A stretch of 64,000 bases of DNA. It comes from a virus. This document shows, piece by piece, positions 16,378 through 41,128 of the stretch. Below the pieces are notes generated by a model. It did no database searches and was not told where the DNA came from. It saw only the letters and a program-made list of their open reading frames with translations. The position numbers and the translations under genes were made by a program. The stretch lies in the IMG/VR virus record IMGVR_UViG_3300049259_000177, positions 50,595-114,594 of that record; one strand, given 5' to 3'. Every line of letters begins with the position of its first letter. The stretch's first letter is position 1.

Positions 16378-17685
16378 CTACGCCGCGAGGAAGGAACCGT
16401 AGACGAACGATTCCGGGCGGGGGACCTCAAGGCCCACCCGCTCCTCACCACGAAGCGTGACAACATTTCGCTCAATGTTATCACGGTTTTCCGTGCTCAC
16501 GATTACGTTGACTTCCTCGCGGTCGTAGACCTTGGCGCCCTGGCCGAAGGCGCCGAGGAGGAAGCGGTCCTGCACGATCGCGGGGGTGTCGATGACCTGC
16601 ATCCGCCAGACCCGCTTCTCGCCACCGATGGCGACCGACGTGGCGACGATGTAGTTGCCGTTGAGGTCGGTCTCCAGTTCGATGTCTTCCCAGTCGAACG
16701 GGTGCAGCACGACGCCGGTCGGCACGAACCATGCGAGCATCGCCCGGGTGGCGGCGCGGCGGATGGCGGCGGACTTCTTGTCGGCGGCGACCTGGGCGTA
16801 GGTCTGGATGCCCGGGGTGTTGACGATGCCGGTCATGTTCTCGCCGACGCCGTCGCCGTAGAGGATCTGGTCGTCCTCGGACATCTTGACGCCGTCGATC
16901 ATGTCCCGGTCGAGCAGGCCGCGCAGCCGGGGCTCGTCGTCGAGAACGTTCTTGTGCACGTCCATCGTGTGCGCGATGGTGCTGATCGGGTAGGTGACCG
17001 TGGTCAGGGTCACGCTGGACTTCGGCTTGAGGCCGAAGACCGTCACGCCGCCGTCGACCTCGCGCTCCGGCACCGGCCGCGCAGCGTTGATGAAGCCGGT
17101 CTCGCGGATGCCGTAGAGCATCGCGGCGGTGGTCTGCTCGCTCGGGAACAGGTCACGGACGCGGCTCGGGCGAAGCACGCGCTCCTGCAAGTCGAGTTGC
17201 TGGGCGGTGCCGAACGCCTGGATCGTGACGGTGCCCGCCGACAGCGAGTACACGTCCTTGCGGTCGAGGCCGCCGTAGAGCGAGACGCCCGACGACTTGA
17301 ACTCCGCGTTGAGCGGCAGCCGGAAGTTCGCCTGCTTCATCTCCGCGTAGACGTCCGAGTCGAGGAAGCGCTGGCCGAGGCCCTTGAAGCCACCACCGAG
17401 TCGCTCGCGCTCGGCGTCGGCCGCGTCGCCGCCGCCGACCGGAGTGCCCGGCTCGCGGCCAAGGAAGTCGCGGATACCCGCCGACTTCTCCAAGGCGACG
17501 ATCGTGCCCTGGATCTTCTCGCCTTCGGTGACGAGGTCCTGGAACGCCTTGGCCTCATCGTTGCTGAGGACGAACTTGCCGTCCTCGGTCTTCCATGAGT
17601 TGCTCGCCGCGTCCTGGTCCTCGGCATTGCCCTGCAACGCCTTCGTCAGTTCCGCGATGCGGTCCTTCGTCTCCGTCATGCCCAT
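16378..17685 (-). CDS. Major capsid protein (HK97 fold)
   Basis: 435 residues from the ATG at 17685 (GGAGG nine bases upstream); a second ATG lies two codons later. Residues about 1-120 are helical and charged, like the scaffold (delta) segment of HK97-type capsid proteins. The rest is the shell domain, with ARPVPEREVDGGVTVFGLKP, SVTLTTVTYPISTIAHTMDV, and a C-terminal EEVNVIVSTENRDNIERNVV typical of the P-domain spine. The prohead protease upstream would remove the N-terminal segment. Flanked by a type L promoter and a very strong terminator, fitting a major structural protein. Confidence 0.9.
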   Translation of the reverse strand: MGMTETKDRIAELTKALQGNAEDQDAASNSWKTEDGKFVLSNDEAKAFQDLVTEGEKIQGTIVALEKSAGIRDFLGREPGTPVGGGDAADAERERLGGGFKGLGQRFLDSDVYAEMKQANFRLPLNAEFKSSGVSLYGGLDRKDVYSLSAGTVTIQAFGTAQQLDLQERVLRPSRVRDLFPSEQTTAAMLYGIRETGFINAARPVPEREVDGGVTVFGLKPKSSVTLTTVTYPISTIAHTMDVHKNVLDDEPRLRGLLDRDMIDGVKMSEDDQILYGDGVGENMTGIVNTPGIQTYAQVAADKKSAAIRRAATRAMLAWFVPTGVVLHPFDWEDIELETDLNGNYIVATSVAIGGEKRVWRMQVIDTPAIVQDRFLLGAFGQGAKVYDREEVNVIVSTENRDNIERNVVTLRGEERVGLEVPRPESFVYGSFLAA

Positions 17686-17861: not shown

Positions 17862-20800
17862 TTACTCGCTAGCCCTTGACGCGAGGAACGACTTGGTCTC
17901 CGCCGCCCGGCCGCGCAACGCCTCGATGTCGATGGTCTCGCCGTCGCCTGCACCCTTCGTGACGACCGCGCTCGGCGCGTCCGTTGGGGGCGTCGTCAAC
18001 GCATCCGGGTTGGAGTCGCCCGAAGCGTCAATCGAGACACCGGCCGCCTTGAGTACCGCGACGAGATGCTCGACGGCCGCACGCAGCCGCTCCTCGTTCG
18101 CGCCGGACAGCACGCGACCAGCCTTAACCTCGGCTGCGAAGTCGTTGGCGATCTGCACCGACAGCGCAACCTGCTCGATGCTCTTGAGCGCGCCGAGCAC
18201 GAGGTACTGCGGGCCCGGTGACGTTTCGTCCTCGCCGTCGTCCGGTTCGTAGTCGTCGTTCTCGTCGCCGGTGCTGGTCGAGAGCACCTCGGCGGTCACC
18301 TCGATGACGACGGGCAGCGGTGGCCCGAGAGTGACCGAGCCGTCGCCGTTGACGTTGTAGGTCAACTCGTAGGTCTCGCTCTTGCCGTCGTTCGGTCCGC
18401 TGTACGCGCACCGGCGTGCGATGACGCGGTCGTCGTAGGTGCCGACAACCTCGACGTAGTTCCATTCGCGGCGCGGCGGCCCTGCGTCCTCGCCATCACC
18501 GGACGGGATCTCGTCGCCGCGCAGTTGGTCGTTGAGCGTCCGGCGTAGCGCGTCCTGAGTAGCCTCGAACGACCCGGCGAGGAATGGATACTGCTTCGCG
18601 TCGACCGCCATGTCCGCACCTACCGCCTTCGTCGAGGCGTACTCGCCGATCTCCGCCTCGGGCATCCATGTGTCGAGCACGTCACTCGACTGCGGATGCT
18701 CAATCGGCGCCGGTCCGGCCGCGCCGCGCTGGCGCAGTGCGGCGAACGCCTTGGCCTGCTCGCCGTCCATGTGCTTGCCTGCGATCTCGACGGCGCGGTC
18801 GTAGGCGCCGTCCTCGTTCCAGCGGATCAGCGCTGCGCCGCCGCCGCGTTCGTACCACTGCACGAGTTGCTTGGCGCGGCGCTGATCTTCGACAGGGAAT
18901 GCCTTGAACTCCTCGATCGCGTCAAGGTCGTCCTTGGTGACGTTCCACTCCTCCGGCAGCATGTCGACGGCGTCGATGGCGCGCGCGCGGCGGACGATCC
19001 AGCGCTTTACCTTCGGCTTCTCCTCGTCCTTCGCGCGCCCATACGCCTGGATCGCGTTCTTGAGGTCGTCGCGGTTGCCGATCGGATAGGGCTCGCGGTT
19101 GTCGCCAGCAGACACCGGCATCGTCGGCTTGCGGTGACGGCTAGCGGCGGACATCTTCGCGGCGATCAGACCGCCGGTGCCTTCGAGGTCGGGGATCTCG
19201 ATGGTTCCGGCTTCGGCCTCGGCGAGCAGGGCCTTACCGGCGTGCGACTCGGCCTTTTTCTTGTCCCACTCAGCAACGGCGGCACATGCGGCGGCCTGGG
19301 CTTCCTTGCTGACCTTGACCTTGCCGCCGAACGCGCGCCCGGTGGCGCACATCTTTTTGCACCAGTTGACGGCGGTGGCGACGGCGACCGACTCGGGGCG
19401 ACCCTTGTCGATGAGGTGGTGCGCGACCCGGCGCATGAGCATCGGCAGGCCGCCGACTTTCTTCACCCAGTTGTTGCCCTCGCCCAGCGGCGCGCGGGTG
19501 GACGCCGTGCCGGTCGGGTCGAACTTGGCCTCGGTGAGCACGATTGCGACCCAGTCATCGACGTCGGCCAGGATCGGCACGCGCCACTCGTGGCTATCGA
19601 GTGCCTTGACCTCGTCGTCGTCGGCCCACTCCTCGACGCCGACCTCACCGAACGCCTCGGCAAGTGCTTCGGGGGTGATCGAGGGCGCCATCTCGGCCAG
19701 TTCCTTGCGGACGATCTCCGCGACGCGCAGTCCGGCGACGGCATCCTCAACCTCGTCGAGATCGAGACCCTTGAGACCCTCCTCATGCAAGAACCGCTCG
19801 AACGCGGCTTCGACGTCTTCGTGCTCGTCGGCCATCGCGGCGAGCCGTGACTTGACGGCAAGCGTCCCAGATAGCGGCGCCGCGCCGAACAGCACCGGGC
19901 TGTACTCGAACAGTTCGAGTTCCTTGATGTGGCGGATGCCTTCCTTGTCGCGCACGCCCTTGCCGTCGGGCACGTGGTAACCGATCGACCACTCACACTC
20001 GCCGGTCTCGGAGAAGAACTTGACGTTCTCGTACGCGTCGCGGCCCTCGCGACTCTTGAGGTTGAACCGCATGCGCACGTAGAGCGCGCCCGCCGCCTTC
20101 GGCCACGGCTGGCCGTCCTTGGTCTGGTCCGGCAGCCGGGGGTCGCCCGGCATCCACTCTTCGACGGCCTCGGTGCGCGCTACCCAGCGCCCCCAGTCAT
20201 GAGAGTTGCCGGTGAAGTAGACCGACCCGTTGCGCCGGGCCAGCCACGTACCGGACGGAGTGGTCGGGCACCAGACGACGCCGTCGTGCGTCGTGAACAC
20301 GTCCTGTCGGGCGACACGCGGCGGCTTGCCCGTCCGCTTCGCCTCCGCGATTGCGGCCAGTGGCTCGCAGGTGTTCCGGCGCAGCATCGTGACCGTGTTG
20401 CACGGGTTGTCCGGGTAGTGGCGGTTGGTCGAGGTGCGACACGTGTTCGTCGGGATACCGGCAAGGGCGCACGCCATCTCGAAGGCGCGCAGGCCGTGCT
20501 CGCTGCGCTGCGCCCAGCGGGCCGTGCCGCTGGCCTCGACGTGGCCGTCCCCGTCCATGCAGGTGTCGATGAGCAGGTGGAGTTGTGCGGCGGTCAGGGA
20601 GCACAGGAACTCCGGCAACGGGGCATTGCCCTCGCCGAGCACGGCCGCCACGGCCTCCGTCGGTCCCTTGTTGAGCCGGAACTCCATGCCGCGACCGTTG
20701 TTGCAGCGGTGCTCGTGGAAGCCGCCGGGGAACGCGGCGGTCAGCGCGCGGCGGATCGAGGCGCACTTGAGCGGGTTGACCGCGATCGACTGCGCGATTG

Positions 20801-21467
20801 TCAGGCGCGGTGTCGATACCGCGTTGCTCTGCGGGCCGAGGTGTCCCTCGTTCCACGCCCAGGCGACGACCTCGACGAACGCGTCCGACCACTTCGCTTC
20901 AACCGGCGCTTCGGTATTGGCGAGGCTGCGGATGATCCCGTCGTCGGCGTCCAGTTCGCGGGTGGTCCGCCAGGTGATCGCGTAACCGCCATCCGCGCTT
21001 TTGACGCGACGGCGTACCGGCCAGCGGTGGTCGAGCGTGGTTAGCGAGGAGAACCCGCTCGTCTCGATCAGCCGGACCTCGCGCGGTTCGGCGTCGAACA
21101 CATTGACGGCCAGCACCGGCTCGAACCGGGCCGTGAGCGTCTCAGGGTTGAGGGCGTAGGCGCGATCGGCGGCGGTCACCTCGTCGTAGCGGAGCCATCC
21201 GCGCTCGGTGAGGATCTCGGTCGCCTCGTCGGCACAGAAGACGCCCTTGGGCTTGCGCTTCGCCAGCGTCGCCTTGTAGGCGCCTGGAATGATGATGTCG
21301 TTGACTTCGTCCTTGATGCCGGTGACCGACACGAGCGCCTCGACGACGCCCGTCGAGTCGTTAGCAGCAACGAGGTCGGTGGTTGTCGCGTGGCTGGACG
21401 CTTTCTTCTCAAGGCCGGGGGGCGTGGTCGCCTCAGGTGCGTCGAGCACGCTGGTCCCCTGTCCCAC
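17862..21467 (-). CDS. Prohead protease (HK97 type) with inserted intein and long scaffold-like extension
   Basis: 1201-residue precursor, GTG start after GGGAGG. Residues 1-77 and 422-530 form the protease: the extein joins KGVF to SHDWG, giving catalytic His423, and Ser494 lies in CEWSIGY. SPVLFGAAPLSG follows as in the family. Residues 78-421 are an intein (separate entry). Residues 540-1200 are an acidic, helical scaffold-like region with recognisable modules: NNWVKKVGGLPMLMRRVAHH with CKKMC near 700, PYPIGNRDDLKNAIQAYGRA near 830, and a beta-rich block near 1000-1110. Spliced length would be about 857 residues. It acts in capsid maturation, between the 466-aa unknown and the capsid gene. 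Confidence 0.85.
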   Translation of the reverse strand: MGQGTSVLDAPEATTPPGLEKKASSHATTTDLVAANDSTGVVEALVSVTGIKDEVNDIIIPGAYKATLAKRKPKGVFCADEATEILTERGWLRYDEVTAADRAYALNPETLTARFEPVLAVNVFDAEPREVRLIETSGFSSLTTLDHRWPVRRRVKSADGGYAITWRTTRELDADDGIIRSLANTEAPVEAKWSDAFVEVVAWAWNEGHLGPQSNAVSTPRLTIAQSIAVNPLKCASIRRALTAAFPGGFHEHRCNNGRGMEFRLNKGPTEAVAAVLGEGNAPLPEFLCSLTAAQLHLLIDTCMDGDGHVEASGTARWAQRSEHGLRAFEMACALAGIPTNTCRTSTNRHYPDNPCNTVTMLRRNTCEPLAAIAEAKRTGKPPRVARQDVFTTHDGVVWCPTTPSGTWLARRNGSVYFTGNSHDWGRWVARTEAVEEWMPGDPRLPDQTKDGQPWPKAAGALYVRMRFNLKSREGRDAYENVKFFSETGECEWSIGYHVPDGKGVRDKEGIRHIKELELFEYSPVLFGAAPLSGTLAVKSRLAAMADEHEDVEAAFERFLHEEGLKGLDLDEVEDAVAGLRVAEIVRKELAEMAPSITPEALAEAFGEVGVEEWADDDEVKALDSHEWRVPILADVDDWVAIVLTEAKFDPTGTASTRAPLGEGNNWVKKVGGLPMLMRRVAHHLIDKGRPESVAVATAVNWCKKMCATGRAFGGKVKVSKEAQAAACAAVAEWDKKKAESHAGKALLAEAEAGTIEIPDLEGTGGLIAAKMSAASRHRKPTMPVSAGDNREPYPIGNRDDLKNAIQAYGRAKDEEKPKVKRWIVRRARAIDAVDMLPEEWNVTKDDLDAIEEFKAFPVEDQRRAKQLVQWYERGGGAALIRWNEDGAYDRAVEIAGKHMDGEQAKAFAALRQRGAAGPAPIEHPQSSDVLDTWMPEAEIGEYASTKAVGADMAVDAKQYPFLAGSFEATQDALRRTLNDQLRGDEIPSGDGEDAGPPRREWNYVEVVGTYDDRVIARRCAYSGPNDGKSETYELTYNVNGDGSVTLGPPLPVVIEVTAEVLSTSTGDENDDYEPDDGEDETSPGPQYLVLGALKSIEQVALSVQIANDFAAEVKAGRVLSGANEERLRAAVEHLVAVLKAAGVSIDASGDSNPDALTTPPTDAPSAVVTKGAGDGETIDIEALRGRAAETKSFLASRASE
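20205..21236 (-). mobile_element. Class 1 intein inside the prohead protease
   Basis: Residues 78-421 of the precursor (344 aa). Block A starts at Cys78 (CADEATEILTERGWLRYDEV). Block B has TLDHRW. Blocks F/G end VWCPTTPSGTWLARRNGSVY, then FTGN, with Ser422 as the +1 nucleophile. The penultimate residue is Gly rather than the usual His. A LAGLIDADG-type endonuclease is suggested by VVAWAWNEGHLG and LLIDTCMDGDGHV. Insertion is one residue before the catalytic His of the host protease, so splicing should be required for capsid maturation. Confidence 0.85.
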
Positions 21468-21500: not shown

Positions 21501-21536
21501 AGGCTAGAAGTGACAGGGGGTTAGTGTCGCGTTGTC
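21501..21536 (-). promoter_or_regulatory. Type L promoter of the prohead protease gene
   Basis: -35 GCGACA at 21525-21530, an 18-base spacer, and -10 TAGCCT at 21501-21506. It begins right at the stop of the preceding gene. Confidence 0.65.
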
Positions 21537-22935
21537 ACACCTTGGCGGCGCTGCGCAGACCGGCGATACGGGCCGCCACCTCGGCGGGGTCGAGGTAGAC
21601 CTTGGTCTCGTCGGGCCGCCCGTCACCACTGGGCGGTTCGACGGCGGTGATGCGCTTGGTCTCCGGGTGCCCGGCTGGCAGCAGGTCGTCGTCGCGGCTG
21701 TAGCCGTCCGGCCGGTCACCGGCGGCTGTGGACAGGAACGCCTTGACGCGGGCCACGCCCCACTGCTCAGCACTCAGGCTCGTCACCGTGTCGCCGGGCC
21801 ACGCCGACACGCCGCGCTCGAAGACGCTCTTGATCGAGTCGCCGTCCGGACGGGCGTGCTCCGGCCAACCTTCGGTGTCGGCGCGGGCCTCGTGGTCGGA
21901 TTGCAGGCCGACGAGCGCGGACACGTCGAGGTCTTTCTTGCTCGCCGGGCGGTTCGCCAGCGGTGCGATCGTGCTCGCCGAATTGGCCCGGGCCGCGATG
22001 CGCTTGCCCGTCGCCTTCCATGAGCCTCCCGACTCGGCGTAGACGACGACGCGGATGGCCGGGTTGTCGGCGCTGCCCTCGACATCGGAGTCGACGCCCG
22101 GCACCTTGCCGTTGGTGACGACGAGATCGACACGACCCTGCTGACTGCCGACCTTCACGTACGAGCCCCGGTGAATGCCGGGCGGCTTGCGCACCTTGGT
22201 GGCGCCGTCGAGCGGGTTGGCGGCCGGGGCGGTCGAGTCCGGCGGGATGACACTCGTCGGGTCCGACGCGTTCGCGGTGCGGTCCGGGTTCAGCGTCGGC
22301 GAGCCGATCGGGACCTCGACGAACGTCGAGTCCTGCACGAGCGTGACGACGCCGAACGACGCCGCCACGGGTGCGATGCGCTGGACCGGCAGGTCGGCAC
22401 CGGCCGATAGCGTGCCGAGCGGGATCTTCGGCAGGTAGAGGTCCGACGGGACCATCGGTGTTACCGGGTTGCCGTCAGTCGGGGCGGTGACCTCCGGCGC
22501 GGCCTGGCCGGAGTTGACGCCGTCCATGATCGCAGCGCGTAGGGGCTCGATGTCGGGAGACTCGACGAGTGCGTAGAACTCATCGGAGTCACCGTCGGCA
22601 GAGGTCCGACCGAGCCCGTTGATCTGGCCGGTGATCGGCTGTCCGTTGGCGGCGGCATCCTTGACGGCGGTGAGCACCGCGATGAGGAATGTCGCCGAGT
22701 CCAGCGTGTTCGGCTTCGCAAGGAAGGCGAGGGTCAGGAACAGCGGCACGCCGTTCTCGCTGTCCTGCTGCGGGAGCGCCTGCGTGGCGTCGTCGGGCAC
22801 CATGCAGACGATCGCGATGTCACCGACGCCTTCCGTGCCGCCGGACGCGGCATCTGCCGGTGCATTTGGGTCGGTGCCTGCGGGCGGTTGACTCGACGCG
22901 GGAGCCGGTGGCGCGGGTGGAACGGGCGTGGTCAC
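21535..22935 (-). CDS. Degenerate 2H-phosphoesterase-like protein with DUF tail, head region
   Basis: 466 residues if the GTG at 22935 is used; it has AGGAGG seven bases upstream. An in-frame ATG at 22977 abuts a hairpin and has no site. About 35-190 follows the 2H (LigT-like) pattern: IAIVCMVPDD, FLTLAFLAKPNTLD, FYALVESPDIEPLRAAI, YLPKIPLGTL. Both HxT catalytic motifs are altered (FLT and KIP), so it is probably inactive. Around residues 255-330 there is a beta-rich block (SYVKVGSQQGRVDLVVTNG, then KVPGVDSDVEG) seen in other actinophage head-region proteins. The C-terminus is helical. Role unknown; it lies just before the protease. Confidence 0.7.
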   Translation of the reverse strand: MTTPVPPAPPAPASSQPPAGTDPNAPADAASGGTEGVGDIAIVCMVPDDATQALPQQDSENGVPLFLTLAFLAKPNTLDSATFLIAVLTAVKDAAANGQPITGQINGLGRTSADGDSDEFYALVESPDIEPLRAAIMDGVNSGQAAPEVTAPTDGNPVTPMVPSDLYLPKIPLGTLSAGADLPVQRIAPVAASFGVVTLVQDSTFVEVPIGSPTLNPDRTANASDPTSVIPPDSTAPAANPLDGATKVRKPPGIHRGSYVKVGSQQGRVDLVVTNGKVPGVDSDVEGSADNPAIRVVVYAESGGSWKATGKRIAARANSASTIAPLANRPASKKDLDVSALVGLQSDHEARADTEGWPEHARPDGDSIKSVFERGVSAWPGDTVTSLSAEQWGVARVKAFLSTAAGDRPDGYSRDDDLLPAGHPETKRITAVEPPSGDGRPDETKVYLDPAEVAARIAGLRSAAKV

Positions 22936-22977
22936 GTCGGTGCCTCCTGGCGTCGTCCGGGCGGGTCCAGACGACAT

Positions 22978-23018
22978 GATGCCCGCCAGCGGCGCTTAGG
23001 TCGCGCCGGGCGGGCATC
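22978..23018 (-). terminator. Long hairpin after the 139-aa gene, overlapping a degenerate type L block
   Basis: Arms GATGCCCGCC and GGCGGGCATC (10 bp) with an inner GGCGC/GCGCC pairing. The loop contains a diverged copy of the type L -35 region (GCGCGACCTAAG). It separates the early-type cassette from the resumed head genes, so it probably terminates incoming transcription. Confidence 0.6.
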
Positions 23019-23029
23019 ACGGGAAGATC

Positions 23030-23449
23030 TCAGCCGTACAGACGGGCCTCCTCGCGCTCCAAGTGGGCCCGCTCGGCCTCGGTGAGCGCCATGTAGGCGC
23101 GACGCTCGGCGGCGTGGCCCTCGCACTGGTACGCCTCGCGATCGGTGGCGAGCAGCCCGCAGCGGCCGTCACTGAGCCCGTCTTCCGTGCGGATCTCGAT
23201 GAGATCGCCGCAGGTGACCGGGTAGGCGACGCCACCGGCGGCGTCATCGACTACATAGGCGGCCAGAACGCCCTCGACGAGACGTGTGCCGGGCAGTTCG
23301 AGTGCTGTGCGCATGTGGTCGCTACACACGCCTTGACGGTGGTCGCGGCCCGGAGCCTCGAACTCGCCGTACTCGTAGTCGGCCCACACGGTCGGCTGGC
23401 CGTAGGTGCGGACGAAGCCGCTGCGCTCTAGGGCGGTCATCTCGATCAT
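23030..23449 (-). CDS. Unknown 139-aa protein with type E promoter and hairpin leader
   Basis: 139 residues, ATG after CAGGAG. Contains TVWADYEYGEFEAPGRDHRQ, four cysteines spread through the middle (VCSDHM, VTCGDLIEI, GRCGLL, YQCEGH) and a Glu/Arg-rich helical tail. The Cys/His pattern could bind zinc. No family recognised. It is the last gene of the non-structural cassette and has its own type E promoter and leader hairpin, which marks it as early-type. Confidence 0.75.
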   Translation of the reverse strand: MIEMTALERSGFVRTYGQPTVWADYEYGEFEAPGRDHRQGVCSDHMRTALELPGTRLVEGVLAAYVVDDAAGGVAYPVTCGDLIEIRTEDGLSDGRCGLLATDREAYQCEGHAAERRAYMALTEAERAHLEREEARLYG

Positions 23450-23472
23450 GTCTGTTTCTCCTGTCGGTCTGG

Positions 23473-23529
23473 CCGGGTCGCTCTCCCGGCTCGCAAGCGA
23501 GCGTACACCCGCTTAGCGACGTGGCGCAA
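23473..23529 (-). promoter_or_regulatory. Type E promoter, operator and leader hairpin (139-aa gene)
   Basis: -35 TTGCGC at 23524-23529. Operator CGCTAAGCGGGTG at 23506-23518 within an 18-base spacer. -10 TACGCT at 23500-23505. Leader hairpin CCGGG-AGAGCGA-CCCGG at 23473-23489, then GACAGGAG and the ATG at 23449. The operator also supplies the TAA stop of the 45-aa gene. Confidence 0.7.
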
Positions 23530-23650
23530 CCGGATCGGGCGGTTGGCCTCCGCTCATTTCCCGATAGGACTGGATGGTGCGAAGGCCACGCTCGACCTCC
23601 TCGCGAGCCCGCCGACGCTTGCGAGCACGAAGCCAGCGACACGCCCTCAC
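23513..23650 (-). CDS. Very basic 45-aa protein
   Basis: Starts at a GTG whose GTGA overlaps the stop of the 217-aa gene; the stop is the TAA inside the operator CGCTAAGCGG. The N-terminal 25 residues are strongly basic (RWLRARKRRRAREEVERGLR). Tight coupling and a clean frame between two sites support it as a real gene despite its size. Possibly nucleic-acid binding. Confidence 0.55.
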   Translation of the reverse strand: MRACRWLRARKRRRAREEVERGLRTIQSYREMSGGQPPDPVAPRR

Positions 23651-24300
23651 GTAAGCGACTCCCACTCAACGATCTCGTAGCGGCCAAAGCCCTGCGACCG
23701 GGAGGCGCCGACGCCTTGCTGCTCGCCGGTCAGCCAGAGCATGCCCCACCTGTCGCGGGTGAGTTCCTCGGAGTCGGTGACGACGGTGAACGACACCTTG
23801 GCGTCGGTGACGTACTCCTCGTACTGGATGCCGGTGCCGCGCCAGGTGTGCACGAAGCGCTGGTTGATGCCAGACGCCTCGACGACACCGAGCGGGATCG
23901 TGTCTTCGACGACGAACACGTGCTCGGCGAAGTAGGACAGCGTGCCCTTACGACTCGGCCCCCAGCGGTCCTTAGGCCACCGGACGTTCGCGGCTTCCTT
24001 GATCGCGGCCTTCACCTGACGACCTTCGATGTAGAGCCCGTCGGCGTTGCGCTTGAACCCGTTGAGGTGCTTGAGACTGTCGACCTCGGCGATCGCTTCC
24101 TCGGCGGGGATGCCGCGCTCGGCCATCGTCGTCGCGACCATCTCGCGGATCAGGTCGTCCTTGTCGGCCATCTTCGTGCGTAGCCAACCCTCGGCGACCT
24201 TCGGGTCAGTTGGCACGCCACCGGCGAGCGTCGCGACGAGCAACGTCGCCCGGAAGCGATGCGGGTAAGCCTGCTCGCGCAGGTCATCGAACAGGGACAT
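23647..24300 (-). CDS. Unknown 217-aa protein with possible RAMP-like features
   Basis: ATG at 24300 with GGAG upstream. The frame stays open far upstream, but only through the low-complexity leader. N-terminal half helical (LIREMVATTMAERGIPAEEA). Middle ADGLYIEGRQVKAAIKEAAN, then FAEHVFVVEDTIPLGVV and QRFVHTWRGTG. C-terminus GEQQGVGASRSQGFGRYEI. The strand-helix IEGRQVKAAIKEA and the glycine-rich GVGASRSQGFGR loop recall the RAMP (Cas7/Csm3-like RRM) fold. This is a resemblance only; no search was possible. It lies in the cassette with a UvrD-type helicase and is preceded by an unusual C-rich leader. Confidence 0.75.
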   Translation of the reverse strand: MSLFDDLREQAYPHRFRATLLVATLAGGVPTDPKVAEGWLRTKMADKDDLIREMVATTMAERGIPAEEAIAEVDSLKHLNGFKRNADGLYIEGRQVKAAIKEAANVRWPKDRWGPSRKGTLSYFAEHVFVVEDTIPLGVVEASGINQRFVHTWRGTGIQYEEYVTDAKVSFTVVTDSEELTRDRWGMLWLTGEQQGVGASRSQGFGRYEIVEWESLT

Positions 24301-24634
24301 CGTGGCGGCTCCTGTGGCTAGTCGGATGGGATGGGGAGGGCGGCCGAGGCGTGGGTGGGGGAGTCGGGCCGAGGCGGGCTGGGGTCGGCGGGGCAGGGGT
24401 GGGTCGGGAAGTCGGGCTGGGGCTGGGGAGACACGGGAAGTCGGGCTGGGTGGGGTCGGGAAGACGTGCGGTGCAGCGGGCAGGCATGGGTGGTCGGAGC
24501 GGGAGAGGGACGGGCTGGCGAGGAACGGGTAGGCGCGGGCAGACCTGGGTGGTCGGACGCGGAGAGGGCCGAATAGGGCGGGGTCGGGAAGGCATGTCGG
24601 AGTGGGAAGGGCGGGGAAGCCTAGCCTTGGGAAG
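24301..24634 (-). repeat. 334-base C-rich, G-poor low-complexity leader
   Basis: On the transcript strand this gap is dominated by C and T with little G or A; the plus strand is correspondingly G-rich. Short imperfect repeats related to CTTCCCGACCC and CAGCCCGACTTCCC recur along it. No gene is credible here. The composition is that of a Rho-utilisation (rut) site in RNA; the plus strand has many GGG runs that could form quadruplexes. It forms the 5' region of the 217-aa gene. Confidence 0.7.
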
Positions 24635-25165
24635 TCAGGCGGCCTTGCCGACGATGCTGCGGTACATCGCGTCGTACTCCTCCTCGGTAAACACCTCCTC
24701 GGTGCGTCGGTCTCCGACGCGCTTGGCGACTGCCTTGTGGAACGCCTCGCGCATCTTCGCGACCGCTGCCGTCTCGTGATAGCGGCTGGCGACGTACATG
24801 TGGTCCGCACCGGTCATGTCGCCGACGCGGCGCCTCGTTCCGCCGTCGTCGATGGCGTAGACGACAGCGAAGTGGCTGAGCGCAGCGAGGTCACCACTGC
24901 CGACCGCGTCCGCGAAGGCACGTGGCTGCCGCCGGGCGAGAGCGGTCGAGCGGTCGTGGCGTAGCGCCAGCGAGAGATCCGACGTCAGGTAGCGGGCGGC
25001 ATTGTCGGTCAGCCACGCCGTCAGTACCTCCGGGTTGCTGGCGCGGAGATCTCGGATGGCCTAGTCAGCCACGACGGCAGGCACGAAGTCGCCATCCGGG
25101 CGGGCGGCGTCGATTGCTGCCTGGATCGCGGGTGGGAACATGCCGTCTCCGTTCGGGGCGTTCAT
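24635..25165 (-). pseudogene. Unknown gene interrupted by an in-frame amber codon
   Basis: From the ATG at 25165 the frame runs 34 codons (starting MNAPNGDGMFPPAIQAAIDA) to a TAG at 25061-25063. The same frame then continues for 142 codons of clearly protein-like sequence (LTAWLTDNAARYLTSDLSLA; later YHETAAVAKMREAFHKAVAK) to a TAA. The segment after the TAG has no start codon until an ATG at 24817, which would yield only 60 residues. Either the gene is broken, or the codon is suppressed or misread. TAG is used as a true stop elsewhere here. Function unknown. Confidence 0.7.
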
Positions 25166-25259
25166 GCGACGACACTAAGCGCGTGTGCGCCACGCCTAGC
25201 GCTTCACGTGCGGGCGTGTCGACCGGACAGGTGGTCGGGCACGCCCGCGCGTGATGGGC

Positions 25260-26171
25260 TCACACGGCTCGGAGGTTGCCCCGACGGCCCGTTGCCGGGC
25301 GTGAGGCGCTCTCCTGCCAGTCCTCGGCGAGCGGGCCGGGGTCCAGCACCTTGCGAGCACGAGTAACGGCGACGTAGCGCAGCCGCAGTTCTTCCGGTGA
25401 CGGTTCCTTGACCTCGCCGTCCTTGCCGGGCTTGGCCTCGAAGTCGTCGCCGATGCGGACGTTCTCCCACTCCCTGCCCTTCGCTTTGTGCGCGGTGGAG
25501 ACGATCAGCGTGGCCGACGCCTCGGTGACGGCGCCGTCGAGCACGCCGAGCAGAGTCGGGCAGGAGAACTCGTTGATGAGCCGGACGAGGACCGCGAGGT
25601 CACTGCCGTCCGGGTCGCTGTCGACGTACTCCTCGACCATCGACCACGAGGTGAACAGGCTCAACTCGGGGAACGTCGTCGAGCCGTTGTCGATCAACTC
25701 CTGCGCGCCACGGATGAAGGCGCTCATCTGCTTGCCGCCGCCGACGAGGTGCACCGACGTGCCGTCGCGCTGCGCGTCGAGCGCGACCTTGAGGGCGCCC
25801 GCGTTGGTCCGGCACAGCACCGCGTCCGGCTTGTCGAGCGCGGCGACGGTGGAGAGGATCTGCGTGGTGCCCTTGATTCGCAGCGGGGTGTCCAACTGCG
25901 ACAGGAAGCGGTTGGCCTCGGTGGCGATCGCCGGGCCGAAGCGGAACGACTGCGAGAGGTAGAGCACCTCGACGCCGGGCTCGCGGGAGAAGATCCCCAT
26001 CGCGTCGATCGCGCCGCGCCACTCGTAGATGGCCTGGGCGCGGTCGCCGACGAAGACGCGCTGGCAGTGGGTCTGGCGGGCGACAACGCTCGCGATGACC
26101 GGGTCGGCGTCCTGCGCCTCGTCGAACAGGATGAAGTCGACGTCGAGGCGCGGGTTGCTCAACTGCCACAT
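25260..26171 (-). CDS. UvrD-type helicase, C-terminal fragment (motifs II-VI)
   Basis: 303 residues. Contains motif II FILFDEAQDADPV, motif III VGDRAQAIYEWRGA, motif IV FRFGPAIATEANRF, a UvrD_C type STAHKAKGREWENV, and YVAVTRARKVLDPG. It is the direct continuation of the helicase started at 27162, but in another frame. The first Met (MWQLSNPRLD) is probably not a native start, since homologues have a few more residues linking it to the upstream half. Can be expressed only if re-initiation occurs. Confidence 0.75.
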   Translation of the reverse strand: MWQLSNPRLDVDFILFDEAQDADPVIASVVARQTHCQRVFVGDRAQAIYEWRGAIDAMGIFSREPGVEVLYLSQSFRFGPAIATEANRFLSQLDTPLRIKGTTQILSTVAALDKPDAVLCRTNAGALKVALDAQRDGTSVHLVGGGKQMSAFIRGAQELIDNGSTTFPELSLFTSWSMVEEYVDSDPDGSDLAVLVRLINEFSCPTLLGVLDGAVTEASATLIVSTAHKAKGREWENVRIGDDFEAKPGKDGEVKEPSPEELRLRYVAVTRARKVLDPGPLAEDWQESASRPATGRRGNLRAV

Positions 26172-27162
26172 CTCCCTGCGACTCGGCGCGGCGACGGATG
26201 CCGAGCGTGTTGCCCTGCGTGCGCGTACGCCAGGTGGTCCGTCCGATCCGGTAGTCGTCCCCCCGTCGGGCGAGGTACACGACGTGGTTGCCGTCGGTCA
26301 GGTCGGCGTCGAGGCGCACCACGCACCGGTGTTCGGCCGTGTATGCGCTCGTGCGCCCGCGAGAGGTCGTCGCCCGCACGAGATCGCCGTCGTAGTGGCG
26401 CTGGCCGACCGCTGTGACCTTGCGGCCCTGACGGCGGATGGAACCGAGCCTGCTCGCAGCCGGGGTCCACGACATCACGTAGTCGCCTTCGCGGAGCGTC
26501 TCGATGGGCACCTCCTCGAACGACGAGCCGAGGTGGCCGCCACGGCTCACCACGCGGCGTACGAGCGTCCCGGTGGGCTGGCAGTCGTGTTGGAAGCGCA
26601 GTTGACCGTCGGTGTCGTTCAGGTCGGCCCACGCCTTGCGGGCGAACGGGACAAGGTGGCGGGCGAGTTCGCGGTGGTTGGCGCCACGACGTTTGGTGAC
26701 CTCGCCTTCGAGGCCCTCGATGAATGGCATGTGCGTGACGTCGATCTCGCGGTCGGCGGAGGAGCAGAACCGGGCGACCATCTGCATCGTGTAACGGGCG
26801 AGCACGTCCTTGGTGACGGTCTTCTCGCCGACCCGGATGCCCTCGTTGATGCCGATGATCTTCGCGGCTTGCCAGGCAGGGACGCGGGCGTTGGAGCGCA
26901 GCCGATGGGCGTAGGTGCGGCCGACTGCCTTCATCGCGTAGGAGTGGGCCGTCCCGCAGACCATGTTCGAGGGGAAGGTCTGCTTCGCCTCACCGGCGAT
27001 CGCGGCGTTGTAGGCGATGTACATGCCTCGGCGGCTCGGGGTAGCGCTCGCCATCAGTTTCAGTGTCGAGGTCTTTCCGGTGCCTGCACCGGCCTCCACG
27101 ACGATGTTCTTGCGAGCGCGGAAGGCATCAACGATGGCCTGCTGCTCGGTGGTCGGGTTCAT
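25600..27162 (-). pseudogene. UvrD-type helicase, N-terminal fragment plus truncated intein
   Basis: ATG at 27162 after GGAG, following a type E promoter and leader hairpin. Residues 1-193 are the N-terminal helicase domain (Walker A EAGAGTGKTSTLK; GTAHSYAMKAVGR). At Cys194, after LRFQHD, an intein begins. It has lost its C-terminal blocks: near 26172 it runs straight into helicase sequence, out of frame. Translation would continue into about 190 meaningless residues to 25600. A deletion that removed the intein's second half and a few extein residues best explains this. The helicase family is common in actinophage genomes. Confidence 0.75.
26172..26583 (-). mobile_element. Remnant of an intein in the helicase gene (5' half only)
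   Basis: Starts with Cys (CQPTGTLVRRVV), then EEVPIETLREGDYVMSW (block A region) and SAYTAEHRCVVRL (block B). This is followed by RGDDYRIGRTTWR and TQGNTLGIRRRA, the start of the endonuclease or linker region of this intein type. No block F or G and no terminal Asn remain, so splicing is impossible in cis. The helicase insertion point is just before motif II. Confidence 0.8.
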
Positions 27163-27180
27163 TGCCCTGTCTCCTGTCCG

Positions 27181-27236
27181 GCGGGTCGCTCTCCCGCACA
27201 ACCAAGACCGTACACCCGCTTAGCGTGAGAGCGCAA
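27181..27236 (-). promoter_or_regulatory. Type E promoter, operator and leader hairpin (helicase)
   Basis: -35 TTGCGC at 27231-27236. Operator CGCTAAGCGGGTG at 27213-27225 in an 18-base spacer. -10 TACGGT at 27207-27212. Hairpin GCGGG-AGAGCGA-CCCGC at 27181-27197, then GACAGGAG before the ATG at 27162. Confidence 0.7.
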
Positions 27237-27304
27237 GCGGAACGGCTTGAATCCGCCAGGGCCGAGTTTTACTCGGGACGGAGGACAGTTTTATTGCGCT
27301 CGAC

Positions 27305-28225: not shown

Positions 28226-31200
28226 GCCGCCACCCGCAAGCGGGGGGTGCGTTCGTCGCCCGACTGGTTCCACGCGCTGACCCGCCATTCACCCGGTCCG
28301 GCAAGCACGACGAACTCGCTCGCCGTCAGGTCACCCATGCCTGAGCGCGGCATCGACAGGATGCGCGTGGCGGGCACTGTTCCCGCCAGCACCACGCCGA
28401 CCCCCTCCGAGGTGTCTGCGAACTGCTGGGCGGCGCCACGATCCGCCGAGAACGACGACAACGGACGCATGTCGATGCTTGTCGTGGTCCCGTGTGTTGC
28501 CCACACCGGGGCGGGGGGAAAGTCTTCCTCGGGCACGTCGGCTGGGTCCGAGAAGTGCATCCCGCGATACAGGGTCACCTGTGTGATGCCCGCTGCCGCC
28601 AAGCGAGCCTGCGTCTCCTCGTACTGCGCGCGGAGGAAGGTGCGCAGAACCGCCTCACGCTCTGCCTTGATTGCGTCGACCCTGGTTCGCACATCGGCAC
28701 CTAGTGTCCACGGCGCCGCTCCCGGTAGGCCGAACTCGTCGACCGCAATCTCCTGCAACGCGAGGGCGTCCGCGTCGCTGTCGTTGGAGGTCATCGACCA
28801 GCGCTGGACCAGCCTCGACACGGCATCGCGCCGTAGGGCGGTGCGGACGGTTTCATCGCCCGGCTCGAACTCGCCTGCGGCGTCGGAAAAGAACTCGACT
28901 GTGCCGTCGTCAGCGGTCTCGCTGGACCAGCGCGAGCCGCTAAGGCTGGCGACCGTGTCCTGGCCCAGCAGGGACGCGTCCGGCACGGTCACCATCCGGG
29001 CGGCGATGGCCGCATACACCTCCGTCTTGGCCTGGGTGCGCGCTTGCTCGCCATCCGGGCTGAGGTTCAGGTCGGCCGGATGCGCCGCTGTTCCGAGACC
29101 GGACGATAGAAGTGCCTGCACCGAGGGATCGAGCGGTGCGCCCATACCGATGTAGTCGACCGGAACGGCGACTGCCGGTTCGACCGATCCCGGCGTTGCC
29201 CCCGGCCGGTTAGGGCCGGGGGCCGCTGCTAAAGGGGTTGCAGCACCGCCTCCGGTGACTGCGAACGAACCGCCGAGGTCGCTCGTGATGCGGACCTCGC
29301 CGTACTGGCCGGTGACGGTGCGCGCTCCGGCGACCCCCCGGCTCTTGCTTGGCGGGTTCGAGTCGCGGCCAAGGCTCGCGAGGGTGCCGAACATGAAGTT
29401 GCGCATGTCCTCGTCGAGATAATCGCTTCCGCCGAACAGCGATTCGATGCCAGTAGTGAACACCTCGTGCGCGTCGCCCCGGCCGTAGTCCTTGCCGGTG
29501 TAGTGGCTCTTGAACTTGTCCTTGCGGCCGACTTCCTTCGGGCCCGAGTAGATCCGCGATACGGTCTCGCGGCTGCGGGCCCCGACCGCCCCGGTGGAGG
29601 TCCGCGACCACAGGAACGCATCCTCGGCAGCGACGAGGCCGGGCACGACCCGCTCCATGTGGTGCCCGAGTTCGTGCACCGCGACCTTATTCTTCTCGTC
29701 CGGACTGCCGCCGGAAATGGCGATCTCACGCGTGGCGACGGCGTAATGGCCGCGCGCGGTACCACGTACCTTGAACGCGCCGAGAGACCGCGCTCGCTCG
29801 GCGGTCAACCAGTCGCTCGGGTACCACTGCTCGGCCCACCGCAGTGCTTTCACGCTCTGCGCACGCTCGCCGGTCGAGTAGGCCATGCCGCCGCCGGGCG
29901 GCGTGCCGACCGGCCGGATCTCGCGCAGCACGTCACGCGCCGCGTTGGCGCGTGCCTCACGGATGCGGACCTTAGCCTCCTCGCGCTGGCCGCGTGTCGT
30001 CATCCACATCTCGCGCTGAGCCTCACGGCGGCGGTTCAAGCCTTCGAGCGCGCCGCCGGGCTCCTCGGCGGCGACAAGCGCGTCGCGCATCTCGTTGCTG
30101 ATCGCGGTGAGCCGCTGATATTCGGCAACGTCGTCACGTGAATCGGCGCCGGTGCGCGAGGACTGGTCGATGAAGTGCCGCAACAGCGAGACGCGGTTGC
30201 GCAGGTTCCGTTCGTCCGGCGCACCGGAGATCTCGGATCCACGTCCCTCGTCCCAGGCACGGTCGAGGAACGGCTGGGCGACCTGCTTGCGGACATCGCG
30301 TGCGTCGCGGTCGAGTTGCGTCATCGACTTGTACGCCGCGTCGCTCTGCTGGTCGAGGCCCTCGATGTAGCGCTCCGGGTTTCCGCCCATATCCGGCAGT
30401 GCTTCGGCGAGACGGCGACCGTACTCCTCCTGCATCGCGGCGCCGACCTGGCGCAGTGCATGCAAGTGACGCATCGCCGTCTCGCCCGGGCCGTCATCGG
30501 CGGCGCGGTCGGCTACATGCTGGTTCTCGGTGATGATCTCCGGAGTCTTGCCCGCTTCGAGGTCGGCGAGGGTGAAGTCACCGAGGGTCGAGACCTGCAT
30601 CTCGCGCTGGCCGAACTTGTCCGGGTCGGACGGCAGCATCGCCTGCCATGCGGCGACGCGATCCTTCCAGTCCCCGCCGGGTTCCGGAAGTGCCTCGTCC
30701 GGCTTGTTCGCGTCGATGCGGTCACCACCACCTGCGAGATGATCCGCCGCCTCGTTCGTCAACTGCTGCGCGCGCCCGTCGATGATGTCCTGCGCGCGCG
30801 AGTCGGGCCCGGTCGCCATCCGGTCGAACAGTGCGCCGAGGCTCTCGGAGTACAGCGGCGAGTTCGTGCCCGCGACCGTCGTCTTCGAGCGCATCTCGGC
30901 AAGGGAGTCGGTGAGCGCGTTGCGGTACGCCTCGCGCACCATCGTGTCGGCGTTCTTGCGTAGCGACGCGGTGCGGCCCGCGTCCTGGCCGAAGGACTGC
31001 CCGGCGATGACGGCCGCCGCCCAGCGCGGCGACGGCTGGAAGTCGCCCTGCTGGACGAGCCGCGCGAGCGGGACGCCGTCCCACTTGTTCGCGAGAGTCG
31101 GCAGCGCGCCGCCGGACTTACCGAGATCGCTGTCGAGATGCGTCTTGAACTTCTCTAGTGCTTCCCGCCGGGCACTGAGTAGCGCATTGCGTACGCGCTG

Positions 31201-36729: not shown

Positions 36730-38246
36730 GCGCCGCCTCCGCGCAGGATCTTGAATCGGAAGCCGCCGACACGCGGCGGCGGGGTCGTGTCGCCGCCGCC
36801 GTCGGTGCCGGTCGCGGCCAAGGCGCCGCTTTCGTGCGCGGCTCGTACGACATCAACCGCTCCGCGACGGCCAGCCGGAGCGCCGGGACGCGGCGCCGGG
36901 GAAGGTGCGTCGCCTCCCGGCGCTGCGGCCGGGTCTTGGTGACCGGCGGGAACGGCGCCAGCCGGTTGTGTCGGTAGGTCTTTCTTGAGCGCCTCGACAT
37001 CTTCCTGCTTCGCGGCGATCGGTGTCGACCCGGCCGGGCGCCACAACGCCCGGGTCTCGGCGGTCTCCTCCATCTCGTCGGCGTGACCCGCTATCTTCGC
37101 GTAGGAGTAGATGGAGCGCAGTCCGGCCGCGACTTCGCCGCGAGCCTCTTCGCGACGTGACCGTTCGGGGATCTGCAACGCCTGGACTTCGCTCGTGTCC
37201 AGGAAGCCGACGAGGTCGTCGTCGCTGTCTTCGTCCCAGCCAGATACGACGATGCGGTTGTGTCGCGACACCGGACCGGTCCAGGCGTTGTACTCCTCCT
37301 GTTCTGCGTTGGCGAAGGTGCGCTCGCTGGCGTTGAACAGTGACTCGCCGAGCATGAAGCCCGCGAGGATCTCCAACTTCGCATTCTTCGATGTCGCGCC
37401 GTACTGCATGTCGCGCGGAGTTGCCGCCAAGTCGATGTACTTCAACTCACCCTGGATGACCGACAACTTCCCCGCTTCGACCGGGCCCCGACCGAACCGG
37501 GCCTCGATCCGGTCCATCTCCTCGTCTTCGATGTCACCGTTGACACCGAGGACGCCGCCGGGGCGTCCGTCGTTGCGCATGAACGACACGTTGTAGAGGC
37601 GGGAGAAGTAGTCGAGTTCGATCGACATGCCGATCGACTCAAGCGGGGTGACACCCGCGTACGGGTCGATCGGGTGTGGCTCACGGAACCACCGGACGTT
37701 CTCCGGCGGGATCTCGCGCGGCTTGCCGCCCGAGCGCGGCCACACAGCGAAGCACTTGACGAGGTCCTTGCCGCTGCCGGGGATCGGGCGGGTGCGTCCG
37801 GGTGGCAGCAGGTCGGCGCGGATGACGGCGCCGCTGCGCGCCTTGGTCACCTCGACGAACGCGCCGCGCTTGGACAGGAGGATCTGCGCGGACAGCCGCT
37901 TGCGGAACTGGTAGCCCGTCTCCAACGGATTCGCCCGCTTGTTGAGCACGTGGTAGAGCGGATGGTCCTCGACGACACCGGTCTTGTTGCGTAGCCTGAA
38001 GTCCAGCCGCGCCGAGTTGCCTGCGATCCACTCGACGGAGTTGAAGACCCACACGACGCGCTCGTAGCCTTCGGCCATCGCGCGCTCGATCGGCCACGGC
38101 CGCGACCGGCCCTGGTAGTCAATACCCGCAGCGGCCAGGGTGGCGTAATAGTCGCCGAGCACCACTTTGCGCTCACTGCGCGAGTCGACGAGCGCCGGGT
38201 GCGGCTTGGTCTCTCCGCTGCGGAGGCTGGGCAGGAACCGGGCCAC
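36726..38246 (-). CDS. Portal protein (HK97 family)
   Basis: 506 residues from a GTG with AGGAG nine bases upstream; the stop overlaps the MuF start. Features of the phage portal family: VVWVFNSVEWIAGNSARLDF near 65-85, PLYHVLNKRANPLETGYQF, VTPLESIGMSIELD (crown/stem), SFMRNDGRPGGVLGVNG, and ILAGFMLGESLFNASERTFA. The C-terminal 90 residues are Pro/Ala/Gly-rich and end in a basic patch. It forms the dodecameric DNA gate; order terminase, portal, MuF is standard. Confidence 0.95.
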   Translation of the reverse strand: MARFLPSLRSGETKPHPALVDSRSERKVVLGDYYATLAAAGIDYQGRSRPWPIERAMAEGYERVVWVFNSVEWIAGNSARLDFRLRNKTGVVEDHPLYHVLNKRANPLETGYQFRKRLSAQILLSKRGAFVEVTKARSGAVIRADLLPPGRTRPIPGSGKDLVKCFAVWPRSGGKPREIPPENVRWFREPHPIDPYAGVTPLESIGMSIELDYFSRLYNVSFMRNDGRPGGVLGVNGDIEDEEMDRIEARFGRGPVEAGKLSVIQGELKYIDLAATPRDMQYGATSKNAKLEILAGFMLGESLFNASERTFANAEQEEYNAWTGPVSRHNRIVVSGWDEDSDDDLVGFLDTSEVQALQIPERSRREEARGEVAAGLRSIYSYAKIAGHADEMEETAETRALWRPAGSTPIAAKQEDVEALKKDLPTQPAGAVPAGHQDPAAAPGGDAPSPAPRPGAPAGRRGAVDVVRAAHESGALAATGTDGGGDTTPPPRVGGFRFKILRGGGA

Positions 38247-38952: not shown

Positions 38953-40701
38953 CTACACGATGAGCCGCGCTTTCTTCCGCTTCGGCTTGATGATCGGCTC
39001 GTACAGCGACAGCAGGAGAGCCTCTGCGCGGTCCGGCGAGGGCAATCCGCGCGTCCTCATCGACGACTTCGCCTCTATAACGGTCAGGCCACCGGAGTTG
39101 GTGCCCATCATGGGCGCCGACAACTGCGCCTGCGTGCGCCGGTCGATGCGCAGCCGCAGCATGCCGGGCTCACCTGGGCCGGTCGGCGTGAGCAGCGAAC
39201 GCCCAGCGAGCCACAGTTCGTCGCGCTTGCGAGCCGGGCGTAGTGTCTCGGCGTCTGGCTCGCGATGGGTGCTCTCACGGACGTCAACGCCGACGATCTT
39301 TGCCGTGTGCAGACCTTCGCTCCCCCACGCGGTGAGGGTGCCGACAACACCCCAGCCGAGGCCAATGACGTCGACCTTGACGTGGATGCGCGACGTCGTG
39401 CCGAGCGCTGCGGCGAGCGCCTCCGCTTCCTTGATCTCGCGCAGCACTTCTCCGGACACGTCGAGGTGGTTGGCATTTGCCGCGCCGGAGGCGATGTGCC
39501 GGATGGTGCACAGATTGCCGACGCTGCGCGACACGACGAACTCGTCGCCGCCGTCGGCAGCAACGTCGACACCGAGGCGTATCCATGCACCGCGCTTGAC
39601 GTGCCACTCCTCCTGTTCGGTGGACAGATCCAGGTCACACAGCCGCACATACTCGTCGAAGTCGTCGTCACCATCTTCAGGCTCCGGCGCTTCAATGCCG
39701 AGGTCGACCCACGTCGACGGGATCGCGCGACGCGGTCCGCCTTTCGGAAACTTTGCGTGCACCTTCGCTGTGACGTACGGCGCATCATCGCCGTGTTCGG
39801 CGATCGTCTCGTCCACCCACTCCTGATCGACAAGGTGTGCGGCGAGTGAGTGCTCTGGCACTTCCGGCGGGCACGAGCGGCAGCGCAGCACCGCTTCGCC
39901 GGACAACTGCGGACTGTCGTACGCGGAGATCGGAATGGTGCACACGTCGTCGGACAGGCACAGCCCCTCGAACCATGAGCCCTCGTCGTCGGTCGGCGGG
40001 TTACCGATCGCAAGCAGGCGTGTCTCCTCGCCGGTGAGTAGGCCGCGCATCGCGCCACCGATGACACGCCCGATACCACCGGCTTCGTCGATAACGATGA
40101 ACAACTTGGGTGCGTGGATACCTTGCACGGCGGACTCGTCGTGCGGCGGTGCGGAGAAACCGTAGGCGACGTCGACCATGACACCGTCGTTGTTGGGCGC
40201 CGCCCACTGCGTCTGATCGACCTGCCCGGGCAGCCCGGCGCGCTTGTGGATAGCGCGTATGTGCGGCCACAACTGGCGCCGTACCTGCCGGAACCGTGTC
40301 GCGGTCGTAACTGTCAACGATGTGCCGACGGGGAACACGGAGCCCCGCCACACAACCCCTCGTGCCGCGATATGGGTTTTCCCCGTACCGAAAGCAGAGG
40401 GTACGGCGACACGGCGGTTGTGTGGGATCGCGTTGAGCACGTCACGCTGCTTCGACCACGTCGTCTCTTGCAACACGTCTTCCACGAAGCCCGACGGGTC
40501 GTCTTGGTACAGGCAGTACGGCGTGCCGCCTTCCTTCGCGGCGACGGTGAGCACTTCAACGAGATCGCGCGGGGTTAGCCCGCGCAGGCCGCCGCGCCGA
40601 ATCTCCGGCGGTACTGCCATGAGATCGCTGAACAGTCGCTTCGCTTCGCGGCTACTGACCCGACTGGGTGTGCGCGCCGCCTCGGTGACAGCAGACGTCA
40701 C
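38953..40701 (-). CDS. Terminase large subunit
   Basis: 582 residues if begun at the GTG at 40701, which overlaps the stop of the 53-aa gene (GTGA). ATPase half: Walker A VPSAFGTGKTH near residue 105, WRGSVFPVGTSLTVTTATRF, and Walker B LFIVIDEAGG near 204. Nuclease half: IRLGVDVAADGGDEFVV near 377 and HVKVDVIGLGWGVVG. The protein pumps and cuts DNA at the portal. No small terminase was recognised nearby. The C-terminus is basic (KPKRKKARLIV). Confidence 0.9.
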   Translation of the reverse strand: MTSAVTEAARTPSRVSSREAKRLFSDLMAVPPEIRRGGLRGLTPRDLVEVLTVAAKEGGTPYCLYQDDPSGFVEDVLQETTWSKQRDVLNAIPHNRRVAVPSAFGTGKTHIAARGVVWRGSVFPVGTSLTVTTATRFRQVRRQLWPHIRAIHKRAGLPGQVDQTQWAAPNNDGVMVDVAYGFSAPPHDESAVQGIHAPKLFIVIDEAGGIGRVIGGAMRGLLTGEETRLLAIGNPPTDDEGSWFEGLCLSDDVCTIPISAYDSPQLSGEAVLRCRSCPPEVPEHSLAAHLVDQEWVDETIAEHGDDAPYVTAKVHAKFPKGGPRRAIPSTWVDLGIEAPEPEDGDDDFDEYVRLCDLDLSTEQEEWHVKRGAWIRLGVDVAADGGDEFVVSRSVGNLCTIRHIASGAANANHLDVSGEVLREIKEAEALAAALGTTSRIHVKVDVIGLGWGVVGTLTAWGSEGLHTAKIVGVDVRESTHREPDAETLRPARKRDELWLAGRSLLTPTGPGEPGMLRLRIDRRTQAQLSAPMMGTNSGGLTVIEAKSSMRTRGLPSPDRAEALLLSLYEPIIKPKRKKARLIV

Positions 40702-41083: not shown

Positions 41084-41089
41084 GCGGCT

Positions 41090-41125
41090 AGGTTCGCCTC
41101 CGGCAGCCCTTAGTGTCGCGTCGAG
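41090..41125 (-). promoter_or_regulatory. Type L promoter of the packaging operon (leaderless type)
   Basis: -35 GCGACA at 41114-41119 in CTCGACGCGACACTAAG, an 18-base spacer, and -10-like GAACCT at 41090-41095, then six bases to GTG 41083. It begins just beyond the dnaB stop and marks the switch from replication to virion genes. Confidence 0.55.
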
Positions 41126-41128
41126 CCC

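Follow-up and report, generated by a model that had tools for sequence, protein, structure and literature searches.

The VIPR system (Viral Interference Programmable Repeat) was described in a 2026 preprint as comprising a phage-encoded RAMP protein, vrRNAs built of YNNGG pentamers, and vap accessory genes (PMC13142463). The targets lie in phages and are read through the NN pairs of the pentamers with one skipped base, which tends to fall on the codon wobble position; vap enhances the system and is not required for it (PMC13142463). In SUSP1 and P. fulva (type II) the vrRNAs have 9-16 repeats followed by an invariant structured 3' tail, the architecture differs among the seven types, and VIPR has been proposed as an ancestor of CRISPR RAMP systems (PMC13142463). 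Here, we analysed a 64,000-nt stretch of viral DNA, further called the window (bases 50595-114594 of the 114,594-bp IMG/VR virus contig IMGVR_UViG_3300049259_000177), with genes called across the whole contig. Judging from the sequence and a structural model, a block of genes embedded in its head gene cluster (27236-23030, minus strand) most probably has a VIPR system at its core, carried as cargo in the slot between the portal/MuF genes and the protease gene of a probable actinobacterial phage; we put the probability of this reading at about 0.9. The comparison with the literature followed the analysis of the array, its recurrence and the protein fold. Positions are those of the window; the prefix G000 marks numbering over the whole contig.

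The gene at 23647-24300 (minus strand) encodes a 217-aa protein which, according to its model, is a RAMP with a Cas7/Csm3-type fold. The AlphaFold (AF2) model, built from 18 relatives, reached a pLDDT of 78.8 and a pTM of 0.74, and all 50 of the 50 PDB matches listed for it by Foldseek were RAMP subunits of type VII or type III CRISPR effectors (among the matches listed, probability 0.99-1.00 and best E-value 4.9e-7). The C-terminal G-rich loop, GVGASRSQGFGRYE, is invariant among relatives, and the open reading frame (ORF) is intact with its conserved motifs kept. The small phage-encoded RAMP with an RRM core and a G-loop that is typical of VIPR is thus found here, as indicated by protein length, model, Foldseek matches and loop. 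Homologs of the gene were found in 105 loci, or 76 after duplicate removal, the window included. In sequence searches, Pfam gave no real match for the protein, PADLOC returned weak Csm4/Cas6 tails and nothing more, and the single PHROG match, phrog_4652, was weak (E-value 0.056). This is the family of the SUSP1 Vipr gene, which matches it with an E-value of 1.4e-96; direct alignment of the window protein with SUSP1 Vipr by hhalign gave an E-value of 0.008 and a probability of 4.9%.

A C-rich stretch with 5-nt periodicity lies beside this vipr-like gene (24316-24638, no strand assigned), and we predict it to be a vrRNA (guide) array with some seven units. Read along the vipr strand, a unit consists of CCGAC, then n copies of NNSYC, then 3-4 nt; on the complementary plus strand it reads (GRSNN)n followed by GTCGG. 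Units occupy 24600-24557, 24556-24498, 24497-24445, 24444-24416, 24415-24368 and 24367-24326, with a degenerate first unit at 24638-24601 and a terminal head at 24325-24316. The fifth position is C in 37 of 40 cases (background 0.56, p 3.5e-7). All 16 NN pairs occur almost equally often, and GRSNN represents the flanking non-coding pentamer array, with GGY/NN or a related consensus, that is known from VIPR. Since a unit consists of CCGAC, NNSYC pentamers and 3-4 bases, the gaps between motif copies are quantised, clustering at 33/34, 38/39, 43/44, 48/49 and 53/54 nt. Across related loci, the spacing of heads modulo 5 was 3 in 77 cases and 4 in 50, with 9-11 cases for each of the other residues (p 1e-25). 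The C-rich stretch of a helicase locus (L061) was also considered as an array and rejected as ordinary coding sequence.

Dozens of viral contigs carry the RAMP gene and the array together, and as a rule a third gene joins them; in the window it lies at 24635-25165. Two relatives among viral contigs share with the window the RAMP gene, its upstream neighbour and the intervening C-rich stretch, and CCGACNNCCC is repeated in that stretch in the window, in both of these first relatives and in Microcystis phage Mae-JY09. When IMG/VR was scanned with the DNA motif CCGACNNCCC alone, 20 of the first loci encoded a RAMP homolog; as the scan used only a DNA motif, the linkage between gene and array is free of protein bias. 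At least three unit heads adjoin vipr in 53 of the 59 loci with ample flanks. In Mae-JY09, a cultured-phage record (L097, 7393-9195), the same RAMP gene occurs with the array following it, apparently unreported in the annotation. The third gene belongs to a family whose homologs lie beside the array and vipr with the same position and strand in 28 loci, as vap would; a relative of it is predicted to be all-helical (pLDDT 89.6), and this fold had no match in the PDB.

Guides were decoded with the published VIPR rule, i.e., the NN pairs were read with a 1-nt skip, and the integrase prediction was written down before the search. The longest guide unit, U2 (24498-24556, plus strand, 10 NN pairs), reads GAn ACn CTn GAn ACn TAn GCn CAn CTn TGn, that is (D/E)TL(D/E)TYA(H/Q)L(W/C), which was recognised before any search as the catalytic motif of tyrosine integrases. 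The 20-base gapped pattern has a single exact match in IMG/VR (20/20, L298:10646-10674, at SAQETLDTYAHLWPD). It falls in a phage integrase gene (Pfam E-value 1.4e-16), and the skipped bases are codon wobble positions. By a rough estimate with an approximate base count, a random 20-base pattern is expected well below once in a collection the size of IMG/VR, and TYAHL, observed once, occurred 0.005 times in order-shuffled units. Since the contig has no Pfam integrase match and no recognisable integrase, self-targeting is not expected. In the relative L281, a guide located 1637 nt after the vipr start decodes to the AADYGVPQ motif of C5 DNA methylases; it matches such genes at 16/16 positions in L238 (2312) and at 15/16 in L095 (19649) and L134 (622), with the skips at wobble positions. 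These methylase genes are carried by other VIPR-bearing phages. A guide of L235 decodes to the integrase-like DTTLDIYGH. Reading with a 1-nt skip, directed at competing mobile elements, is therefore seen in the integrase match of U2 and in the full methylase match of the relative.

Several observations weigh against a VIPR system. The units here hold only 4-10 pentamers and end in a short GTCGG, compared with the 9-16 repeats reported, and the long structured 3' tail is missing. The likeness of the RAMP sequence to SUSP1 Vipr is weak and near the detection limit, and the accessory gene is interrupted by a TAG in frame. For most guides no target was identified: when all long units were taken together, matches with a 1-nt skip in 3.5 Mb showed no general excess over order-shuffled controls. 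In 199 genomes of the Streptacidiphilus order, U2 had one match with two mismatches, compared with five for a shuffled pattern, thus no enrichment; in the search of genomes of this order guide U3 had no match. A bulk test of the skip rule had given an apparent 1.7-fold excess for a skip of one, which we rejected because order-shuffled controls gave an equal number; the excess reflects codon-phase composition.

We propose the following course of events. The array would be transcribed and its RNA cut into short guide RNAs, on each of which RAMP subunits would assemble, one pentamer per subunit. The NN pairs would then base-pair with double-stranded DNA, one target base being skipped at each step, and the complex could repress or block genes of competing temperate phages, namely an integrase in the case of this phage and a C5 DNA methyltransferase in a relative. 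The presence of a RAMP, a guide array and one guide decoded to the integrase gene of a temperate phage makes it probable that the block serves to attack competing phages. VIPR was reported only in 2026, and compact arrays in a large, probable actinophage would supply many natural guides for the 1-nt-skip code, one of which indicates a concrete prey gene, the phage integrase. A VIPR system would also account for sequence next to an unknown gene that gene calling passes over as low-complexity junk, and CCGACNNCCC at 5n+3/4 spacing offers a practical search motif for further loci.

Which strand of the array would serve as the guide is a separate question. We infer that the G-rich one would do so, which in this phage runs antisense to vipr, since the complementary array strand, (GRSNN)n-GGGTAGTCGG, resembles the (YNNGG)n-GGGTAGTTAG of SUSP1. 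Transcription on the vipr strand, giving a C-rich guide RNA with the 5' head CCGACTACCC, appears to us less likely. In most loci the array is co-oriented with both genes and occupies the space between them, so an operon transcript would carry the C-rich strand. However, the vrRNAs of SUSP1 are of GG type and carry their constant part on the 3' side of the repeats, and in our locus only the G-rich strand reproduces this. Moreover, in L104, L260, L267 and L269 the arrays are turned the other way relative to vipr, thus their orientation to vipr is not fixed.

The VIPR locus might also be a decaying relic, in which the RAMP gene and the array remain while the accessory gene and the neighbouring helicase are dead. 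The vap-like accessory gene (24635-25165, minus strand, about 176 aa) is interrupted by the in-frame TAG at 25061-25063, its frame otherwise running on across the stop in line with relatives; the gene caller lists only the 60-aa downstream ORF at 24635-24817. The helicase is damaged as well. Its two pieces, between 25260 and 27162 on the minus strand, belong by profile to the UvrD-like phage helicases of PHROG 1967 (E-values 1.4e-53 and 4.1e-28). The N-terminal part with Walker A (26584-27162) covers PHROG 1967 positions 152-346 and ends with ...FQHD at 26584, and the C-terminal part (25260-26171; PHROG E-value 1.4e-53, Pfam UvrD) resumes in a different frame without xYLK. Between them, inserted after ...FQHD, lies the N-terminal remnant of an intein (26172-26583), which lacks its C-terminal half, the splice junction as well as the extein residues xYLK are absent, and the frame is broken, whereas relatives that were read out have an uninterrupted ...HD-xYLK-W... 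junction. Both halves are present in 80 of 80 relatives, 13-55 nt apart in 79 of them and separated by a 904-nt gap in one. Trans-splicing by a split intein was considered and rejected, for the C-extein is present once and no intein C-part precedes it.

The in-frame TAG and the broken helicase together suggest some decay or, alternatively, errors of metagenome assembly. A relic of the whole locus we regard as doubtful: the RAMP ORF is intact, the array has kept its phase in 37 of 40 cases, vap only enhances VIPR (PMC13142463), and in a metagenome assembly point errors or a collapsed intein are conceivable.

The block itself is real and lies where the earlier note had placed it, with the portal and MuF genes on one side and the head protease on the other. 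On the minus strand, the portal gene (36726-38246), a gene for a 2835-aa MuF protein, the block, the head protease ORF (17862-21467, containing an intein) and the major capsid gene (16378-17685) are consecutive. By its capsid protein, the closest cultured phage is Streptomyces phage Gilgamesh (42%), and contigs of Actinomadura and Streptacidiphilus carry vipr relatives; an actinomycete host is therefore likely. The portal-to-protease slot holds different cargo in Gilgamesh and Gray, the nearest cultured phages by capsid protein. The description of the block as accessory cargo that brings its own start signals into the late genes, in a region often home to unknown phage functions, agrees well with our results, the cargo here including a VIPR locus. 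Helicase and unknown genes are indeed present, the latter at 24635-25165, 23647-24300 and 23030-23449 (minus strand); the last encodes a 139-aa protein with its own start unit and no family match. The 5-nt-periodic array, the RAMP gene, the in-frame TAG, and the intein remnant and frameshift of the helicase had been overlooked. A nucleotide search of the region against cultured phages gave no match, the portal protein as a query retrieved no relative, and an Rfam search matched no known RNA.

The start signals are promoter-hairpin units that had been called type E, and two of them were correctly reported in the block, with exact copies of the core GCTAAGCGGGTGTACG at 23502 (unit 23450-23535, minus strand, upstream of gene 23030-23449) and 27209 (unit 27163-27241, minus strand, upstream of the helicase). 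Both contain a -35-like TTG and an extended -10-like TGTACGnT, together with a hairpin whose conserved loop is GAGCGA, and ACAGGAG-ATG. With up to three mismatches the core has 8 matches in the window, compared with 0.62 in shuffles. About 13 units were found in the whole contig, each with promoter-like hexamers, a GAGCGA-loop hairpin with a covarying stem and a ribosome-binding site. In the hairpin alignment, 90% of cells are paired and there are 10 double changes, a result reached by 0 of 500 shuffles. Variant or doubled cores also occur outside the block, at 46077, 46156, 54112 and 44713-44736, two of them 79 nt apart. The core and loop used as a pattern in IMG/VR revealed no other phage.

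The statement that type E units are elsewhere confined to the replication side is not borne out. The earlier note covered 64 kb of the 114.6-kb contig, with the remaining 50.6 kb unseen, and in that part, outside the window, units sit at G000 39344(+) and 44418(-), among tail-fibre and tail genes and beside exonuclease- and RecT-like genes. The island at G000 39404-43633, which holds these exonuclease- and RecT-like genes along with type E units of its own and lies between the tail-fibre and tail genes, is a second cargo slot within late genes.

The hairpin said to close the block as a terminator exists (22978-23018, minus strand, -39 kcal/mol); its role as a terminator is unproven, since there is no T-run. 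This strong hairpin reaches to the ATG of gene 21535-22977; its core, CTAAGC, is of late type, and it contains CGACCTAAGCG, a near-match of the CGACACTAAGC cores upstream of the major capsid and other late genes. CGACACTAAGC is a second start-associated motif, found at 17801, 14315, 9008 and 56198 upstream of capsid and other genes; CTAAGC is common to it and type E, and it may be a mark of the late class. Gene 21535-22977 of the head operon has a weak RNA-ligase match (phrog_14859, E-value 2.9e-4), and in Gordonia phage Gray the corresponding slot holds a gene annotated as RNA ligase. The intein of the head protease (17862-21467) looks complete, with C as first residue and HNS at the end, and the DnaB-like ORF at 41129-43681 contains an insertion resembling a terminase-type intein.

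The earlier proposal that the whole block, 27236-23030, is one mobile, early-expressed cassette, moved and expressed together, seems to us unlikely. It draws on the two type E units and the closing hairpin with its late core, on the different slot cargo of other phages, and on the identity over 72 nt of the type E unit at 27169-27240 with G000 39328-39399, far apart and on the opposite strand, which in sequence terms is a sign of recent copying of such a regulatory unit. However, neither repeats at the boundaries nor a mobility gene were seen, type E units lie among structural genes at other places too, and where the VIPR genes (23.6-25.2 kb) recur in other phages, the helicase does not accompany them as a conserved neighbour. 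Thus, the helicase and VIPR were probably acquired separately in one slot, and the helicase, split by a truncated intein and a frameshift, would be separate cargo and not a conserved VIPR partner. Finally, it is highly improbable that the C-rich stretch is no more than a minisatellite, or that it extends the coding sequence of the downstream gene by a proline-rich part. Its complexity is low and it forms an open frame continuous with the RAMP gene (387-aa ORF), but unit spacing is quantised as 5n+3/4 across loci, the phase resets at each head so that no reading frame is kept, the NN positions are used almost evenly, and one unit matches an integrase exactly.

Among known systems, type III and type VII CRISPR-Cas share with the VIPR locus the Cas7 (Csm3-type) RAMP fold and the G-rich loop, from which we take it that the protein would assemble on a guide RNA. 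In contrast, the locus has no classic CRISPR repeats, as only a 5-nt head is constant and spacers are broken at 5-nt intervals; genes for cas1/cas2, cas10 or a nuclease were not seen adjoining the RAMP gene, and no cas1/cas2 or other cas family was found among the recurring neighbours of VIPR loci. TIGR-Tas reportedly combines a Tas protein bearing a Nop-type guide-binding domain with 36-nt dual-spacer guides. As in our locus, short guide units in tandem form a phage-associated array next to a single protein gene (PMC12045711), whereas here the protein is a RAMP by fold search and the array is built of pentamers, with unit lengths of 33-59 nt in 5-nt steps. The closest system is that of Escherichia phage SUSP1 (L297), which we read directly: a RAMP-family gene at 28474-29061 flanked by (YNNGG)n tracts that end in GGGTAGTTAG. 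Compared with SUSP1, the locus here has 4-10 pentamers per unit, head-to-tail packing with a 3-4 nt phase reset, only GTCGG as the end, and GRS instead of GGY as the consensus; its array is placed between vipr and the accessory gene, usually in inverted orientation to the former, and protein similarity is close to the detection limit. Such compact head-to-tail arrays with inverted orientation, minimal ends and short guides, directed mainly against integrases and methyltransferases of competing phages, could tentatively be seen as an unreported VIPR type of actinophages. The locus is VIPR-like: type II-like long guides with a structured tail are missing and protein homology is weak, yet most of the features compared are present. 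Both systems have a small phage RAMP, flanking pentamer arrays with variable NN and a constant GG-type trinucleotide, an accessory gene, and a constant segment after the repeats that starts with GGGTAGT, and in both the guides are decoded with a 1-nt skip and point to targets in competing mobile elements (PMC13142463).

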